Source: Phycisphaerales bacterium (GTDB lineage: Bacteria > Planctomycetota > Phycisphaerae > Phycisphaerales > UBA1924). From it: a DNA stretch of 64,000 bases. Position 1 is the stretch's first letter; each line of letters begins with the position of its first letter. Location: positions 1 through 64,000 of the forward strand of contig JARGPA010000012.1 in NCBI GenBank assembly GCA_029213305.1, in the 5' to 3' direction. Below are positions 1 through 17,220 of this stretch, piece after piece. Made by a program: the position numbers and the translations under genes. The notes under the pieces were generated by a model. The model did no database searches. It was not told the origin of the DNA and worked only from the letters and a program-made list of their open reading frames with translations.

Positions 1-118
1 GCTTGAGGAGGTAAGGATAGCACACTCAGCAGCGTCAGGGTACCCCATCTCGAGACCCTGTACGCACCCCAAACAACCGGGGTTGCTCAAATTGCGCTAT
101 TCGTGGAGGTTTGAACCT

Positions 119-1066
119 TTATCCAATAGAACGAGTGACGGACACGCCTGCATATAACCCTGCGACTTCTTCACGAGGCACAGTCATCGGCGGATATCGA
201 TTGTTGATGGGTTGAATTCGGATGAGTTCGTTGCCTGCGTCATCGGTTTGGAAGTAAATCCGTTTAAAAGTTGAATCATGATCGGGTTCGAGACGCACGA
301 AACAGTCCATGCCGTCTGATATTTCACGCGCAGGCGAGAACACAACGATGTCCCCTTCGCAATAGTTTGGTTCCATCGAATCACCTACGACCCTTGCTGC
401 AAACGCGTCAGGATCATTCAAATCTGGAGTCCGGATGTACTCGTCTGCGGTTCTTGCAGGATATCCCATATCCGAAAAATCCGCAGGGTATCCCGCGGTT
501 ACCTTGTTTATCACAGGGACCTCCATCGGTAACACAGACATCATCCTTTGCATGGACTTGTCTTTGTCAGATGATTCTTGATCAATGACACGCTCACACT
601 CTTCATCAGTCGCAGTATGAACGACCTGAGCGGACTCAGTGCTTGTATCAGAAGCAGGATCTATCTGATCAATGAGATTCCGAAGTTCTCCAGAAGCGTA
701 AAGCTCGTCGAGCGACGCCCCGCTTCTCGCGTTTGCAGACAAGAATCGAGCAAGTGAACGAGCAGAGTAATCCCTCTCTCTCAGCCTTTCAATATCTTGC
801 TTGATCAGAATGGGTGTCTGATCCCATCTTGCACAATCGAAGAGTTCACCTGATTGAAAAGAAAGTGCTTGTTCGAGATTTTCGATGAGACTGTCAGCTG
901 GGGGTCCCTTATGCCCATTCTCAATTGATGAGATGTAAGACTTTGCACAACCGACCCGTTCTGCAAGCTCAGCAAGTGAGAGCTTTAATCGGAGTCGTCG
1001 TTGACGCAGCTTTGTGGCGAAGGTAGTCGCCGAGAGTTCGATTGAGTTGTGTAGTTGAGTCGCCAT
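119..1066 (-). CDS. XRE/S24 LexA-CI-type self-cleaving repressor
   Basis: Predicted transcriptional repressor of the cI/LexA kind. Numbering from the ATG at 1066 (315 aa), an XRE helix-turn-helix lies at about residues 19-65 and a peptidase S24 domain fills the C-terminal third. The cleavage dipeptide Ala191-Gly192 sits in VINKVTAGYP, the catalytic serine in VVGDSMEP (Ser230) and the general-base lysine in STFKRIY (Lys268), so autocleavage after DNA damage is expected. A TTG at 1183 would add 39 unconvincing residues, so the ATG was preferred. It diverges from the phage-like operon starting at 1293, and a perfect palindrome in the shared promoter region is the obvious operator. The linker between the two domains (about 120 residues) is longer than in LexA. 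Family assignment is firm; its target genes are inferred from position. Confidence 0.88.
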   Translation of the reverse strand: MATQLHNSIELSATTFATKLRQRRLRLKLSLAELAERVGCAKSYISSIENGHKGPPADSLIENLEQALSFQSGELFDCARWDQTPILIKQDIERLRERDYSARSLARFLSANARSGASLDELYASGELRNLIDQIDPASDTSTESAQVVHTATDEECERVIDQESSDKDKSMQRMMSVLPMEVPVINKVTAGYPADFSDMGYPARTADEYIRTPDLNDPDAFAARVVGDSMEPNYCEGDIVVFSPAREISDGMDCFVRLEPDHDSTFKRIYFQTDDAGNELIRIQPINNRYPPMTVPREEVAGLYAGVSVTRSIG

Positions 1067-1217
1067 TTGAGCATCGTTTGTTTTGGGCTTGGGGATAAAG
1101 ATTGTGGATATTGGATTCTGATCGGTATGAAGTGACCGGGTCTGTGCGCTGATTTGTCGATATACCATACAGTACCCTTGCAAAGCGTTCGCAACTTGGT
1201 GTATACTTCAAAAAAGT

Positions 1218-1237
1218 TGTTCACTATATTGTGAACA
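1218..1237. promoter_or_regulatory. Palindromic operator between repressor and phage-like operon
   Basis: A perfect inverted repeat, TGTTCAC-6 nt-GTGAACA, lies in the intergenic region between the divergent repressor and HTH genes. On the minus strand a TTGACA hexamer (1256-1251) sits just upstream of it. The spacing to a TATAGT inside the palindrome is 22 nt, longer than ideal. The symmetry and place fit a binding site for the adjacent S24 repressor; that assignment is inference. Confidence 0.6.
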
Positions 1238-1292
1238 CATTAATGCGTCATGTCAAGTGCATTTCCAACATTTATGAGTCAAGGAGGCGAAA

Positions 1293-1763
1293 ATGGGGCG
1301 AGAAAAGACAAACAGCGACTGGCTAGACCAAGTCGATGAACGAGTGGATCTGAGAAGAAGACGAGAATCATCGCATGGAGATCGACTCGTTCGACGTGCT
1401 CATTGGCTTGAACCTGCGGATCGAGAGCTCGTTCTCGCGATGTTCCGCGATGGTAAAAGCGCTGTCACTATTTCCCAACTCATGAATGAATCCCCTAGAA
1501 ACATCCGTAGAAGAGTCCGCAAACTGATCGAACGGCTTAACGATCCACGCGTTGCATATGTTGTTGCACATCACAAGGGGTGGAGTAAATCGCGAAGAGC
1601 AATTGCCCACTCCTTATTCATCAAAGGCAAATCAATGCGAGAAACAACAGAAGAACTCGGGTTGAGTTTTTATTCTGTTCGTAAACATCGTGAAACAATC
1701 GAAGCAATGTGCGTTGCATCAAACAACTCATCTCACTCGCGCATTTGGCGCACATCCCACTAA
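1293..1763 (+). CDS. Helix-turn-helix protein, first gene of phage-like operon
   Basis: A basic 156-residue protein with two helix-turn-helix-like stretches: around residues 61-83 (ISQLMNESPRNIRRRVRKL) and around 112-134 (SMRETTEELGLSFYSVRKH). A good Shine-Dalgarno (AAGGAGG) precedes the ATG. Its position first in an operon that ends with a terminase large subunit makes a terminase small subunit-like or operon-regulator role plausible. No recognisable small-terminase motif is present, so the function is not assigned. The next gene begins about 20 nt downstream, which implies co-transcription. Arg-rich composition fits DNA binding. Confidence 0.75.
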   Translation: MGREKTNSDWLDQVDERVDLRRRRESSHGDRLVRRAHWLEPADRELVLAMFRDGKSAVTISQLMNESPRNIRRRVRKLIERLNDPRVAYVVAHHKGWSKSRRAIAHSLFIKGKSMRETTEELGLSFYSVRKHRETIEAMCVASNNSSHSRIWRTSH

Positions 1764-1783
1764 ACATTGGAGTTGGAATAGTA

Positions 1784-3178
1784 ATGGGATGGAGACAACG
1801 AGCATCAAATCGCAATCCAATACAGATATACACGCCGGCTGAGATCACACCCGAACTGCTTCGTGCATCTGCAGCTTTTGGATTAATACCAAAGACGATC
1901 AATCAAACTCAACCAAAGCAAGATCCACCTAGTGATGAAACATTCGAACAAATACTGAAACACAGAATTGTATTTATTCGAGGCGCATCTGGGAGTGGAA
2001 AAAGTTCCTTGATCCGAGGCCTACATTCAAAGCTACTCAAGAAGAATCACAAAGTACACACAACGGGGTCATACCCAATCAAATGTGATCGGCGAACAGC
2101 GATTATTGATAGACTCGATAATAATCTGCAATCTCGTGTTTCATCACTCTCGCGTGCGGGTCTCGCAGAACCATCACTCTGGGCGCTTCCATACTCTTGT
2201 CTCTCTGTAGGTCAACAAGCGCGCTTTGAGATGGTATTAGTGATGCAGCACGCATCCAAAGGGGATGTTGTGATCGCAGATGAGTTTGGGACGCCTCTAG
2301 ATCGAGTATGCGCATATTCATTTGCGAGAACAATCCGACGATGGGCAATAGAAAAAGGTGTGATACTCATCTGCGCCACTGCACACGAGGACATGGAACA
2401 GATGATCTCTCCTGAGTTCGTTATTGATCTCGATGATCAAAAACATCGATATCCAAAACCCAGTATTGATCAATTAATCCACATCGAAACAGGTACTTAC
2501 AAAGATTATAAGAGTCTTGCCCACCATCATTATTTGGGATCGGACCCAGCGACTCACACACTGATACTTCGAGCAACTCGACACCTCAATGGGTCTCAAC
2601 GAATTCTTGCTGGAATACTTGTAGTATCAATGCCCACTCTCAACGGGTCGTGGAGAAACAGAGCTTGGCCGGGATTTTTTAACTCTTCATCGAAATCTCA
2701 AAACGCCAAGACAATCAATACGCATTTACGCTGTATATCACGTGTCATCGTTGCTCCTAGTTCTCGTGGACTTGGAGTTGCGACGAAACTCGTCCGCGAG
2801 TATTTAGAAAAACCGCAAACATCATCCTCAGAAGCGATCGCCGCGATGGGGTCTGTGTGTCCATTCCTTGAACGCGCTGGTATGCAATCGTATGAGATGA
2901 TCCCATCAATTGATGATTTGCGATTACTCGATGTCCTTGAGCATCACAACATGACGATCACTGATTTAGTTAGATCCGAGATTGATCATCGTTCACACCT
3001 TGGTGTCGAGCTCATCCGTTGGGGCAAGCGCCGAAAACTGATATCCAAAGACCATCACCCATCCGAGATCCTTAGGAATATCACCCTGGGCGCCGCGTGT
3101 CGGCTGATCTCTAAACCTCGCGCTTACGCCCACACAAATATGCACCATGTGGAGAGTACGGGTGACCAATGCAAATAA
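1784..3178 (+). CDS. ABC-type ATPase fused to GNAT acetyltransferase (COG2401-like)
   Basis: A 464-residue two-domain protein. The N-terminal half is an ABC-type ATPase: Walker A GASGSGKS (about residues 67-74), a degenerate signature SVGQQARFE (141-149), Walker B VVIADEFG (162-169) and a switch histidine in ATAHED. The C-terminal half resembles a GNAT acyltransferase, with HHHYLG, then SRVIVAPSSRGLG as the acyl-CoA loop, and CPFLERAGM near the end. This order matches the family known as 'ABC-type ATPase fused to a predicted acetyltransferase'. There is no membrane segment, so it is not a transporter. An in-frame ATG at 1709 would overlap the preceding gene; the ATG at 1784 was chosen. Function is unknown; DNA-linked roles are likely given the neighbouring HTH and terminase genes, and phage Mu Mom, a DNA-modifying enzyme, also has a GNAT-like fold. 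Confidence 0.82.
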   Translation: MGWRQRASNRNPIQIYTPAEITPELLRASAAFGLIPKTINQTQPKQDPPSDETFEQILKHRIVFIRGASGSGKSSLIRGLHSKLLKKNHKVHTTGSYPIKCDRRTAIIDRLDNNLQSRVSSLSRAGLAEPSLWALPYSCLSVGQQARFEMVLVMQHASKGDVVIADEFGTPLDRVCAYSFARTIRRWAIEKGVILICATAHEDMEQMISPEFVIDLDDQKHRYPKPSIDQLIHIETGTYKDYKSLAHHHYLGSDPATHTLILRATRHLNGSQRILAGILVVSMPTLNGSWRNRAWPGFFNSSSKSQNAKTINTHLRCISRVIVAPSSRGLGVATKLVREYLEKPQTSSSEAIAAMGSVCPFLERAGMQSYEMIPSIDDLRLLDVLEHHNMTITDLVRSEIDHRSHLGVELIRWGKRRKLISKDHHPSEILRNITLGAACRLISKPRAYAHTNMHHVESTGDQCK

Positions 3179-3407
3179 ACCATTAGACAATATAACTCAC
3201 AAAGAGATTCCAAGACCCCCTGTCGCAAACAATCCTGAATCGTTACCAAGCGCGGTTACATTCTTTGTAAACCATGCGCAGCGCAAACAAATTTTATCCA
3301 TACTCAAATCGTATTCTCACGATCGATCGGTTGCGTTAGACATAGTTCTATCGCTCGCAGAGAGAGAAACTCGATCAATGCCTAATGGAGTCCAAATCCA
3401 TGACTGA
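3162..3407 (+). CDS. Small hypothetical protein between ABC-GNAT and terminase
   Basis: An 81-residue hypothetical protein starting at a GTG preceded by GGAGAG at ideal spacing. An ATG at 3147 in the same frame lacks such a site. It overlaps the 3' end of the ABC-GNAT gene by 17 nt and the 5' end of the terminase gene by 8 nt, so all three are probably translationally coupled. The C-terminal half looks helical and charged (AQRKQILSILKSYSHDRSV). No family recognised. The small size and place just before a terminase would suit a small accessory or terminase-small-like subunit, but nothing in the sequence proves that. Confidence 0.6.
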   Translation: MTNANKPLDNITHKEIPRPPVANNPESLPSAVTFFVNHAQRKQILSILKSYSHDRSVALDIVLSLAERETRSMPNGVQIHD

Positions 3408-4905
3408 AAACAATGGAGACGAGTTCAATTTAGAGACAGGTTATAGAGAATGCCCATCGAATGATGAAGAGCTCTATGAGTGGATGCTCGACCATCTCTC
3501 TATTCGAGTTGTTCGCGAACCCTTAATTGATGGACATTCGGCGCCATTTTCTTATCTGAGTCATGCTTTCTTTGAGCATAAAAAACCACGCGATTGCATC
3601 GTTTGGGCAAATCGCGGCGGAGGCAAAACATTTTATGCTGCGGTCGCAACAATGCTCGATCTGATTTTCAAACCTGGAATAGAAATCAGAATCCTGGGTG
3701 GTTCACTCGAACAATCGAAACGAATGCACGCGCATCTTCGCGATTTGTTTTCAACCAATCCATTCGACCAACTCATCGAAGGAAAAGTAACTGATCGTCG
3801 GATCCGACTTCGTAACGGATCATCAGTAGAACTCCTCGCGCAATCTCAAACTTCAGTTCGAGGAACTCGCGTGCAAAAACTTCGTTGTGACGAAGTTGAG
3901 TTGTTTGATCGTGATGTTTGGGAAGCTGCTCAACTTGTTACTCGCGAAAAACAATGCGGCGACCATCGAGTGCGTGGAGCAATCGAATGTTTATCAACAA
4001 TGCATGTCCCGTATGGAATAATGCACGACCTTGTTGCAGAGAGTATCGAAGATGAGCAAGAATCTCGCGTGCTCTATAGATGGGGAGTGGTTGATGTTCT
4101 GGGAGAGTGTGATGATCAAACACATCAATGCATTCATGAAGATGGACCTTGCCCGCTCGCTGCAGAATGCGCAGGAAGAGTTAAGGGTCGAGATCGCCGC
4201 GGCGAGACCCCAGGGCATATTACGATCGACGATGCAATATCACTAAAGAAACGAGTAGGACACAATACCTGGAACGCGGAGATGCTTTGCAATCGGCCTC
4301 AAAGATCAGATTGCGTTATCCCTGAGTTTGAACCTTCAATCCATGTTGTTGACCAGCTCCCACTGGATTCATTGACATGGAGATGGATCGGAGGCATGGA
4401 TTTTGGAATCCGTTCTCCAACAGTAGTGCTCTTTGCGTGTGTTGATCCAACAGGTTGTATTTGGGTTTGTCAGGAATATCTAAAAACCGATGCACCACTT
4501 ACTCAACATATTGCAGAGATCCAAAGCTTTGCGCACAAGCTCGATTGGATCGGAGTAGATCCCGCCGGCCGACAAAGAGGGTTTCAAACCGGGATATCAG
4601 ATGTTGCAGCAATGCGACGCAGCGGTTTGATTGTTCATGATCGCAAACTCGGACTCCACGAAGGACTCGGACTCCTTCGATCACGATTTAAAACTGCAGA
4701 AAATGGTACAAAACTGTACATACATCGATCGTGCGAAAAATTGATTGAGTCTCTTGAAAAATATCATTACCCGAAGGATCAACCTTTATCCCCTTCACCT
4801 GAAAAGGATGGATGGGATCATTGTGTAGATGCACTACGGTACATGATTCAAAACCATGACATGGGTTACAAAACTGTGCGTGAGACTTATATCCCCAACA
4901 GTTAG
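3400..4905 (+). CDS. Phage terminase large subunit (TerL)
   Basis: Two-domain DNA-packaging motor. Numbering from the ATG at 3400 (501 aa, GGAG 9 nt upstream): the ATPase domain has Walker A RGGGKT at 72-77 and Walker B LRCDEVE with Asp164-Glu165. A four-cysteine segment (Cys237-Cys257) forms a probable zinc knuckle between the domains. The RNase H-like nuclease has MDFG (Asp334), GVDPAG (Asp387) and the C-terminal HCVDALRYM (Asp477). All catalytic positions are intact and the length is normal, so the gene is not visibly decayed. It ends the operon: the next genes are opposite-strand membrane-protein genes, and no portal or capsid gene follows as it would in a working prophage. Identification is confident; present function is open. 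Confidence 0.9.
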   Translation: MTENNGDEFNLETGYRECPSNDEELYEWMLDHLSIRVVREPLIDGHSAPFSYLSHAFFEHKKPRDCIVWANRGGGKTFYAAVATMLDLIFKPGIEIRILGGSLEQSKRMHAHLRDLFSTNPFDQLIEGKVTDRRIRLRNGSSVELLAQSQTSVRGTRVQKLRCDEVELFDRDVWEAAQLVTREKQCGDHRVRGAIECLSTMHVPYGIMHDLVAESIEDEQESRVLYRWGVVDVLGECDDQTHQCIHEDGPCPLAAECAGRVKGRDRRGETPGHITIDDAISLKKRVGHNTWNAEMLCNRPQRSDCVIPEFEPSIHVVDQLPLDSLTWRWIGGMDFGIRSPTVVLFACVDPTGCIWVCQEYLKTDAPLTQHIAEIQSFAHKLDWIGVDPAGRQRGFQTGISDVAAMRRSGLIVHDRKLGLHEGLGLLRSRFKTAENGTKLYIHRSCEKLIESLEKYHYPKDQPLSPSPEKDGWDHCVDALRYMIQNHDMGYKTVRETYIPNS

Positions 4906-15999: not shown

Positions 16000-17220
16000 T
16001 TACTCGATAATCTCGATGACAGTACCCGATCCGATGGTGCGACCACCTTCACGAACCGCGAAGCGGAGACCTGTTTCCATCGCTACTGGTTTTTCACCCA
16101 GGTCAATTTCCATGGTCACGTTGTCACCAGGCATGCACATTTCTGCTTTCGCGCCGCCGTCGCCGAAGAGGTTAAGAACCTGTCCAGTTACGTCAGTTGT
16201 ACGGAAGTAGAACTGAGGCTTGTAGCCTGCGAAGAATGGAGTGTGACGGCCGCCTTCATCCTTGTTCAAGACGTAAACCTGTCCCTTGAACTTGGTGTGT
16301 GGCTTGATTGAACCTGGCTTACAGATAACTTGACCACGAGTGATCATGTCCTTGTCGATACCACGGAGGAGGACGCCACAGTTATCGCCTGCACGGCCTT
16401 CTTCGAGTGTCTTCTGGAACATTTCAACACCGGTAACGGTTGTTGCTTGGTTTTCCTTTTGGAGACCAACGATTTCAGCAGCGTCGCCGACGCGGACTAC
16501 GCCACGCTCAACACGGCCGGTTGCAACAGTACCACGACCCTTGATCGAGAAGACATCTTCTACTGAGATCAAGAATGGCTTGTCGTCTTCACGAGCAGGT
16601 TCTGGGATGTAGCTGTCGATTGTGTCGAACAGTTCATCAATAGGACCACATGCTGTGTCGTCTGCAGGGTTTTCAAGAGCAAGCTTGGACTGACCACGAA
16701 TGATCGGGGTGTCGTCGCCTGGGAACTCGTACTTATCGAGGAGCTCTCTAATTTCCATTTCAACGAGGTCAAGAAGCTCGTCGTCATCAACAAGATCAAC
16801 CTTGTTCATGAATACGACGATGTAAGGCACGCCTACCTGGCGAGCAAGAAGAACGTGCTCGCGAGTCTGAGGCATTGGACCTGAGTCCGCAGCAACAACA
16901 AGAATCGCGCCGTCCATTTGAGCAGCACCAGTAATCATGTTCTTTACGAAGTCCGCGTGACCCGGGCAGTCCACGTGAGCGTAGTGACGGCCTTCTGTTT
17001 CGTACTCAACGTGAGCTGAGTGAATAGTCACAGTCTTGTTGGAGTCACGAACAGTACCACCCTTGGTGATTTCTGCGTATGTCTTCGCACCCTGGACTAG
17101 GCCCTTCGCGTCAGCGCGTGCAACCATCGCTGCGGTCAGGGTTGATTTACCGTGGTCAATGTGACCGATGGTGCCGACATTGACGTGCGGTTTGTTCCGC
17201 TCAAAGTTTGCCTTAGCCAT
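16000..17220 (-). CDS. tuf: Elongation factor Tu
   Basis: EF-Tu delivers aminoacyl-tRNA to the ribosome. Its 406 residues contain the G1 loop [14 protein letters not shown] (G3), NKVD (G4) and the typical domain 2 and 3 motifs ([25 protein letters not shown]). The switch I segment reads [17 protein letters not shown] instead of the common RGITINT. The Mg-binding Thr is kept, and I recall the same type of sequence in other planctomycetes. It is flanked by trnT upstream and rpmG downstream. A single tuf is seen in this window. Confidence 0.97.

Follow-up and report, generated by a model that had tools for sequence, protein, structure and literature searches.

A terminase-containing operon under an S24-type repressor is retained across the Phycisphaerae and may process cellular DNA

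We analyzed the first 64 kb (64,000 nucleotides, hereafter the window) of a 111-kb contig (JARGPA010000012.1; C9) from a Phycisphaerales bacterium, whose genome is a 92% complete metagenome-assembled genome (MAG) of 2.93 Mb. The subject of this study is a five-gene cassette at positions 119 to 4,905 that ends in a gene for the large subunit of a phage terminase (TerL). An initial annotation, made from the letters of the sequence alone, had recognized in it an S24 repressor, a helix-turn-helix (HTH) protein, an ABC ATPase-GNAT fusion, a small open reading frame (ORF) and TerL, and had proposed a retained module rather than a dying prophage. ORF finding and family identification confirmed all five genes and their coordinates. 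The repressor gene lies on the minus strand, and the genes for the HTH protein, the ABC-GNAT fusion, the 86-aa ORF and TerL lie on the plus strand:

119-1066, minus strand: S24 (LexA/CI-type) repressor with an HTH_3 domain (Peptidase_S24, 2.2e-16; HTH_31, 6.9e-11; phrog_4 transcriptional repressor, 1.5e-28)
1218-1237, unstranded: putative operator TGTTCAC-N6-GTGAACA between the repressor and HTH genes
1293-1763, plus strand: all-helical DNA-binding protein with two HTH motifs (sigma region 4/KorA-like), encoded at the head of the operon (Sigma70_r4_2, 4.4e-4)
1784-3178 (ORF from GTG 1709), plus strand: ABC ATPase-GNAT fusion (phrog_11143, 3.3e-23; phrog_886)
3147-3407, plus strand: isolated ParB-like C-terminal domain, 86 aa (PARB profile, 8e-12)
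3385-4905, plus strand: TerL, motor ATPase and RNase H-fold nuclease (phrog_2, 2.3e-17; solved TerL 5oe8, 5.1e-12)
3607-3630, plus strand: TerL Walker A, residues 75-82, ANRGGGKT (31-sequence alignment)
3889-3894, plus strand: TerL Walker B, Asp169-Glu170 (31-sequence alignment)
4108-4170, plus strand: TerL four-cysteine motif C242, C249, C256, C262, between ATPase and nuclease (alignment)
4399-4401, plus strand: TerL nuclease Asp339 (31-sequence alignment)
4558-4560, plus strand: TerL nuclease Asp392 (31-sequence alignment)
4828-4830, plus strand: TerL nuclease Asp482, in DHxxDALRY (31-sequence alignment)

The repressor ORF spans positions 119 to 1183 (TTG at 1183), and since its homologues align only from residue 40 onwards, its start is probably the ATG at 1066. 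The genes of the operon had been described as tightly spaced or overlapping. This holds for the overlaps of the ABC-GNAT gene with the small ORF and of the small ORF with the TerL gene, which are real, but the overlap between the HTH and ABC-GNAT genes is doubtful because the ATG at 1784 is a likelier start of the ABC-GNAT gene than the GTG at 1709. Directly after the operon we found membrane-protein genes on the minus strand, as annotated. The first base of the window is also the first base of the contig, which ends 118 bases beyond the repressor gene, so that a prophage on the left could not be seen within this genome itself.

The ATPase and nuclease residues of TerL, which the annotation had considered intact, proved invariant in an alignment of 31 homologues: this applies to R77, G79, K81 and T82 of Walker A, D169 and E170 of Walker B, S204 and T205 of the coupling motif, and likewise to Asp339, Asp392 and Asp482 of the nuclease. 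The protein thus combines both Walker motifs with a coupling motif and the acidic residues of an RNase H-fold nuclease. It is not encoded together with a small terminase subunit (TerS) and a portal, as its own genome contained no match to TerS, phrog_145 or PF04860; judged by its sequence, the protein is a TerL that stands outside a packaging context. Pairwise Nei-Gojobori ratios of nonsynonymous to synonymous substitution rates (dN/dS) for the closest pairs of the genus, some of which are near saturation and a few of which gave higher values, were 0.035-0.085 for TerL, 0.09-0.13 for the S24 repressor, 0.07-0.19 for the HTH protein, mostly 0.16-0.24 and up to 0.37 for ABC-GNAT, and mostly 0.22-0.36 and up to 0.53 for the ParB C-domain, with roughly 0.03-0.15 for the flanking ferredoxin and DUF6677 genes for comparison. 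By this measure TerL is under tighter constraint than any other cassette gene, and the comparison with ABC-GNAT that the annotation had suggested revealed purifying selection on both genes, with the strongest effect on TerL.

The four-cysteine motif of TerL has the form C-x4/6-C-x2-C-x5-C in most families, its middle spacing being longer in the family of the window. It is present in nearly all cassette TerLs and in the TerLs of one group of prophages (f10), and in 0 of 81 viral TerLs. Its spacing recalls the iron-sulphur loop of endonuclease III, and we infer from the motif that TerL may bind a metal. An in-frame stop was seen in TerL of a minority of relatives (G048, G075, G099), reflecting either decay or sequence errors in the MAGs. 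No close viral relatives of TerL were found in IMG/VR, where the best identity was at most 34%.

TerL was detected in 113 of 151 genomes from the genus, family and order to which the window belongs, in most cases as one intact copy, and in 168 of the 298 genomes sampled across the class Phycisphaerae, a count that takes in a few weak and prophage-type matches. Beyond the class we obtained weak matches only (best E 3.5e-24), mostly to the nuclease domain, and a scan of named genomes yielded Phycisphaerales, Phycisphaerae or planctomycete records almost exclusively, with cyanobacterial names on two records. Conservation across more than 100 genomes is far beyond chance. The gene order S24 / HTH - ABC-GNAT - (small ORF) - TerL, for which the annotation had proposed a search in related Phycisphaerae, is kept among the 20 relatives that were fetched. 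Of these, 12 have the cassette at the same chromosomal site, next to the neighbors it has in the window (an 82-aa protein, DUF6677 and a 246-aa protein), and on the repressor side the relatives carry ordinary genes. Synteny and class-wide distribution led us to reject the edge of a prophage as an explanation, and the ordinary flanks, the shared site and the class-wide retention are not those of a prophage or cryptic prophage. A prophage on the left, or absence or decay of the cassette in close relatives, would have spoken against a retained module; neither was encountered in the relatives, and the proposal of such a module is strongly supported by the class-wide vertical retention together with purifying selection.

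In a TerL tree of 59 rows, the 43 cassette TerLs form a single clade (SH-aLRT 98) that is sister to the TerLs of portal-bearing Phycisphaerae prophages (7 rows, SH-aLRT 100), with the more distant viral TerLs outside. The tree follows taxonomy, since 19 group labels require 19 changes against a minimum of 18. The simplest reading of this pattern is one capture followed by vertical descent, and families without the cassette, such as f2 with its one exception, are best read as losses. We consider the capture of a phage block and its vertical chromosomal inheritance to be very well established.

Two observations concern the repressor side of the locus. In one relative (G013), two tRNA genes (L037:14385-14456 and 16399-16472) lie near an elongation-factor-like gene, and the left flank varies among relatives. 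At the contig end, about 76 bases (window 12-87) share 79% identity and an exact GTACGCACCCCAAACAA with a copy located 1.4 kb from the end of its own contig (G000:C34:177404-177478), and may represent a repeat or a small RNA. We rejected the idea that this stretch is a tRNA or an attachment site, because no tRNA was predicted and no Rfam match was found there.

The cassettes of other families point to a fuller ancestral operon. There, ABC and GNAT are encoded by two adjacent genes, and a ParB-like protein with a ParB_N domain and a small protein precede TerL. The small protein (C20) matched the terminase small subunit family phrog_2538 (1.7e-4) in one of three members scanned and precedes TerL in many loci and in prophages; its family match and its position ahead of TerL mark it as TerS. 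The full operon set is [S24] HTH-ABC-GNAT-ParB-TerS-TerL, and 20 of 21 order-level loci contain the HTH gene. The 86-aa ORF of the window aligns to the C-terminal domain only of the full-length ParB-like genes of relatives, ParB_N having been lost in the family of the window, and the TerS profile had no match in the window's own genome. The lineage of the window has thus lost TerS and the ParB N-terminus.

Phage counterparts of this gene order were found in prophages of the class. In one f10 locus (L091) ABC-GNAT-ParB-TerS-TerL is followed by a portal (phrog_145, 1.4e-31), a scaffold protein (phrog_206) and a major head protein (phrog_1357, 1.7e-47), and an f15 locus (L095) carries TerS-TerL-portal. 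The TerLs of these prophages form the clade sister to the cassette TerLs, and the f10 gene order is the same as that of the cassette; the prophages differ in adding the phrog_145 portal (in f10 also the scaffold and the phrog_1357 head protein), and their TerLs are about 30% identical to those of the cassette. L091 together with L256 (G154) represents a Phycisphaerae prophage with the order ABC-GNAT-ParB-TerS-TerL-portal-scaffold-head protein and is probably related to the captured phage. A viral contig (L134) has overlapping ParB, ABC and TerL genes in this order. In Gordonia phage Mariokart (genes 1-4) and Rhizobium phage RHph_N1_10, adjacent ParB, ABC(-GNAT) and TerL genes likewise precede the portal. 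Unlike the cassette, which stops at TerL and is inherited vertically as part of the chromosome, these phages continue into portal and capsid genes. From the gene order of the prophages and of the Gordonia and Rhizobium phages, the cassette corresponds to the pre-portal block of such phages.

The annotation had stated that none of the next 59 kb encodes portal, capsid, tail or lysis proteins. This stands for the portal, head and scaffold families of the nearest prophage, since hidden Markov models of them, all from one prophage clade, had no match in the 43 longer ORFs between 4.9 and 64 kb of the window. Family and profile searches with four portal and capsid families (PF04860, PF05065, phrog_145 and phrog_1357) found no match anywhere in the window's own genome. 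Among 198 genomes of the class, the phrog_145 portal occurred in eight, seven of which have either a TerL of prophage type or a full portal frame and one a short fragment, and the phrog_1357 head protein in three; the PF04860 portal (13/91) and the PF05065 capsid (11/91) were sporadic among 91 relatives.

The repressor had been annotated as LexA/CI-type with an intact Ala-Gly cleavage site and Ser/Lys dyad, and indeed Ala230-Gly231, Ser269 and Lys307 are kept in 76 to 78 of 79 homologues, as would be expected of a self-cleaving S24 repressor. The palindrome TGTTCAC-N6-GTGAACA between the repressor and HTH genes is the sole exact copy in the genome, in which copies with up to two mismatches are at control level (21, versus 20 for the reversed control). 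In 77 related loci, some genomes being entered twice, the best match to GTTCAC-N6-GTGAAC had on average 2.0 mismatches versus 4.5 in shuffles. A minus-strand promoter-like site overlaps the operator; the promoter- and terminator-like hits of the region are at chance level. A global SOS regulator was rejected, as there is no second exact operator and near matches show no excess. The repressor shares the Ala-Gly site and the Ser/Lys dyad with LexA/CI-type S24 repressors in general and differs in having a single dedicated operator, so that it looks local rather than global; these features fit a local autoregulator with possible damage induction. Because a repressor of cleavable type sits at a dedicated operator, DNA damage probably turns the operon on, and an SOS-type induction appears somewhat better than an even bet.

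For the HTH protein, a sigma70-ECF match (6.9e-8) fell below the cut-off, and its model (pLDDT 87) resembled sigma and KorA folds weakly, with no match reaching E<=0.001. In the ABC-GNAT protein, the Walker, signature and GNAT R-G-x-G motifs are conserved, and its model (pLDDT 79.5) gave a near full-length fold match to a protein of Leptospira phage LE4 (1.2e-18) and a weak Foldseek match to a model of a Mom DNA-modification protein (5.9e-4, TMt 0.51). Homology of the GNAT to Mom found no support in the comparison of sequence profiles. One study (PMC7824862) predicts that a GNAT coupled to an ABC ATPase acylates a DNA base. The cassette has this domain pair in common with that ABC-coupled GNAT, and its model shows the weak structural match to a Mom protein; it differs in that its GNAT is tied to TerL under an S24 repressor and that the Mu Mom profile gives no support. 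Given this published prediction and the weak structural match, ABC-GNAT possibly modifies DNA. Single-sequence patterns found no viral relatives of ABC-GNAT in IMG/VR. Lone fused ABC-GNAT genes of 480-550 aa occur without TerL in families f8, f19 and f21 (L266-L270), one of which (L266) adjoins another S24-type repressor.

To account for these findings, we propose that a tailed phage resided in an ancestor of the Phycisphaerae and that its packaging-initiation block (repressor, HTH, ABC, GNAT, ParB, TerS, TerL) was captured once, split from the portal and capsid genes, and then passed on vertically as a chromosomal operon. The S24 repressor, with its intact self-cleavage site, would hold the operon at its dedicated operator until DNA damage probably induces it. 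In the lineage of the window the operon would run without TerS, the ParB N-domain and a cognate portal or capsid. Since TerL is under the strongest selection despite these losses and no portal or capsid is detectable, it would act on cellular DNA instead of filling capsids, most likely by translocating along DNA and cutting it inside the cell, and ABC-GNAT may acylate DNA bases, thereby marking or licensing DNA. The function that the sequences make most likely is thus that of a cellular device for DNA processing which is controlled by a repressor and may also acylate DNA bases. We assign a probability of roughly 0.5 to this explanation as a whole, comprising capture, damage control and capsid-free DNA processing. 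The stronger proposal, namely that the packaging motor has been a capsid-independent, damage-controlled cellular enzyme since the origin of the class, travelling along and cutting own or invading DNA and coupled to DNA-base acylation by ABC-GNAT, is a candidate at somewhat less than even odds, and the mechanism of DNA processing or modification is put forward tentatively.

Several points weigh against this explanation. The TerL tree is a quick reconstruction that has long viral branches and an uncertain root, the hhalign profile comparison of the GNAT with Mu Mom gave no support, and the operator palindrome can also be read as a terminator hairpin, its minus-strand terminator-like score being at chance level. 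Moreover, a diverged or swapped capsid set may possibly lie elsewhere in the 92%-complete MAG. Such a set is what a gene transfer agent (GTA) would entail, in which the operon would be the DNA-loading part and the head and tail genes, too diverged for the models used, would be located elsewhere. The vertical inheritance in single copy across the class, the purifying selection and the repressor control resemble those of known GTAs such as RcGTA and BaGTA, which are likewise domesticated and include a terminase, and TerS and ParB still adjoin TerL in several families. However, no lineage-conserved portal, capsid or tail was found alongside the cassette: in searches with the four families, the cognate portal and capsid families were absent from cassette genomes except prophage carriers, and the HK97-type portal and capsid were sporadic and lacking in the window's own genome. 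RcGTA and BaGTA also differ in this respect from the cassette, which has lost TerS in the window's lineage, together with the ParB N-domain, while TerL remained strongly selected. Packaging for a GTA is therefore disfavoured and appears unlikely.

About equally unlikely is an SOS-triggered anti-phage device, in which the terminase and ABC-GNAT would attack incoming phage DNA or misdirect its packaging, or would mark self DNA against the cell's own nuclease. Satellites turn phage-derived packaging genes against phages, which provides a precedent, the GNAT could modify self DNA, and the ABC protein has a weak match to mad3 of MADS (7.5e-9). Yet no PADLOC system was matched, the TerL, ParB and TerS proteins had no match in its library, and most defence genes do not evolve slowly and vertically at one fixed site; membership of a known defence system was rejected, as PADLOC returned generic HTH and ATPase matches only. 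The lone ABC-GNAT genes would agree with the notion that ABC-GNAT is the selected component, as a DNA- or protein-acetylation factor, with TerL as its partner in another role such as chromosome-end processing in repair. We regard this as improbable, because no cassette gene is more constrained than TerL, which persists where TerS and ParB_N are gone. Hardly any weight is left for a prophage remnant at the contig edge that is neutral or decays slowly. The contig does end 118 bases beyond the repressor gene, TerS and ParB_N were lost in some relatives, f2 is almost entirely without the cassette and a few TerLs contain a stop, but intact frames in more than 100 genomes, invariant catalytic residues, dN/dS values of 0.04-0.09, a conserved operator and ordinary flanks in relatives all speak against decay.

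Phages are known to have been domesticated as particle-making GTAs, tailocins and satellites. Here, a bacterial class has fixed the packaging-initiation block alone; the motor-nuclease is its most strongly selected part, its partners were lost stepwise, and in the open-access literature we found no such case of a class-fixed packaging block and nothing on COG2401 or a lone terminase. The cassette suggests that a virus DNA motor has been reused by cells for a job of their own. It makes the task of a terminase in a cell without a capsid open to experiment, and it may offer a cellular setting for the DNA modification predicted for ABC-GNAT proteins.

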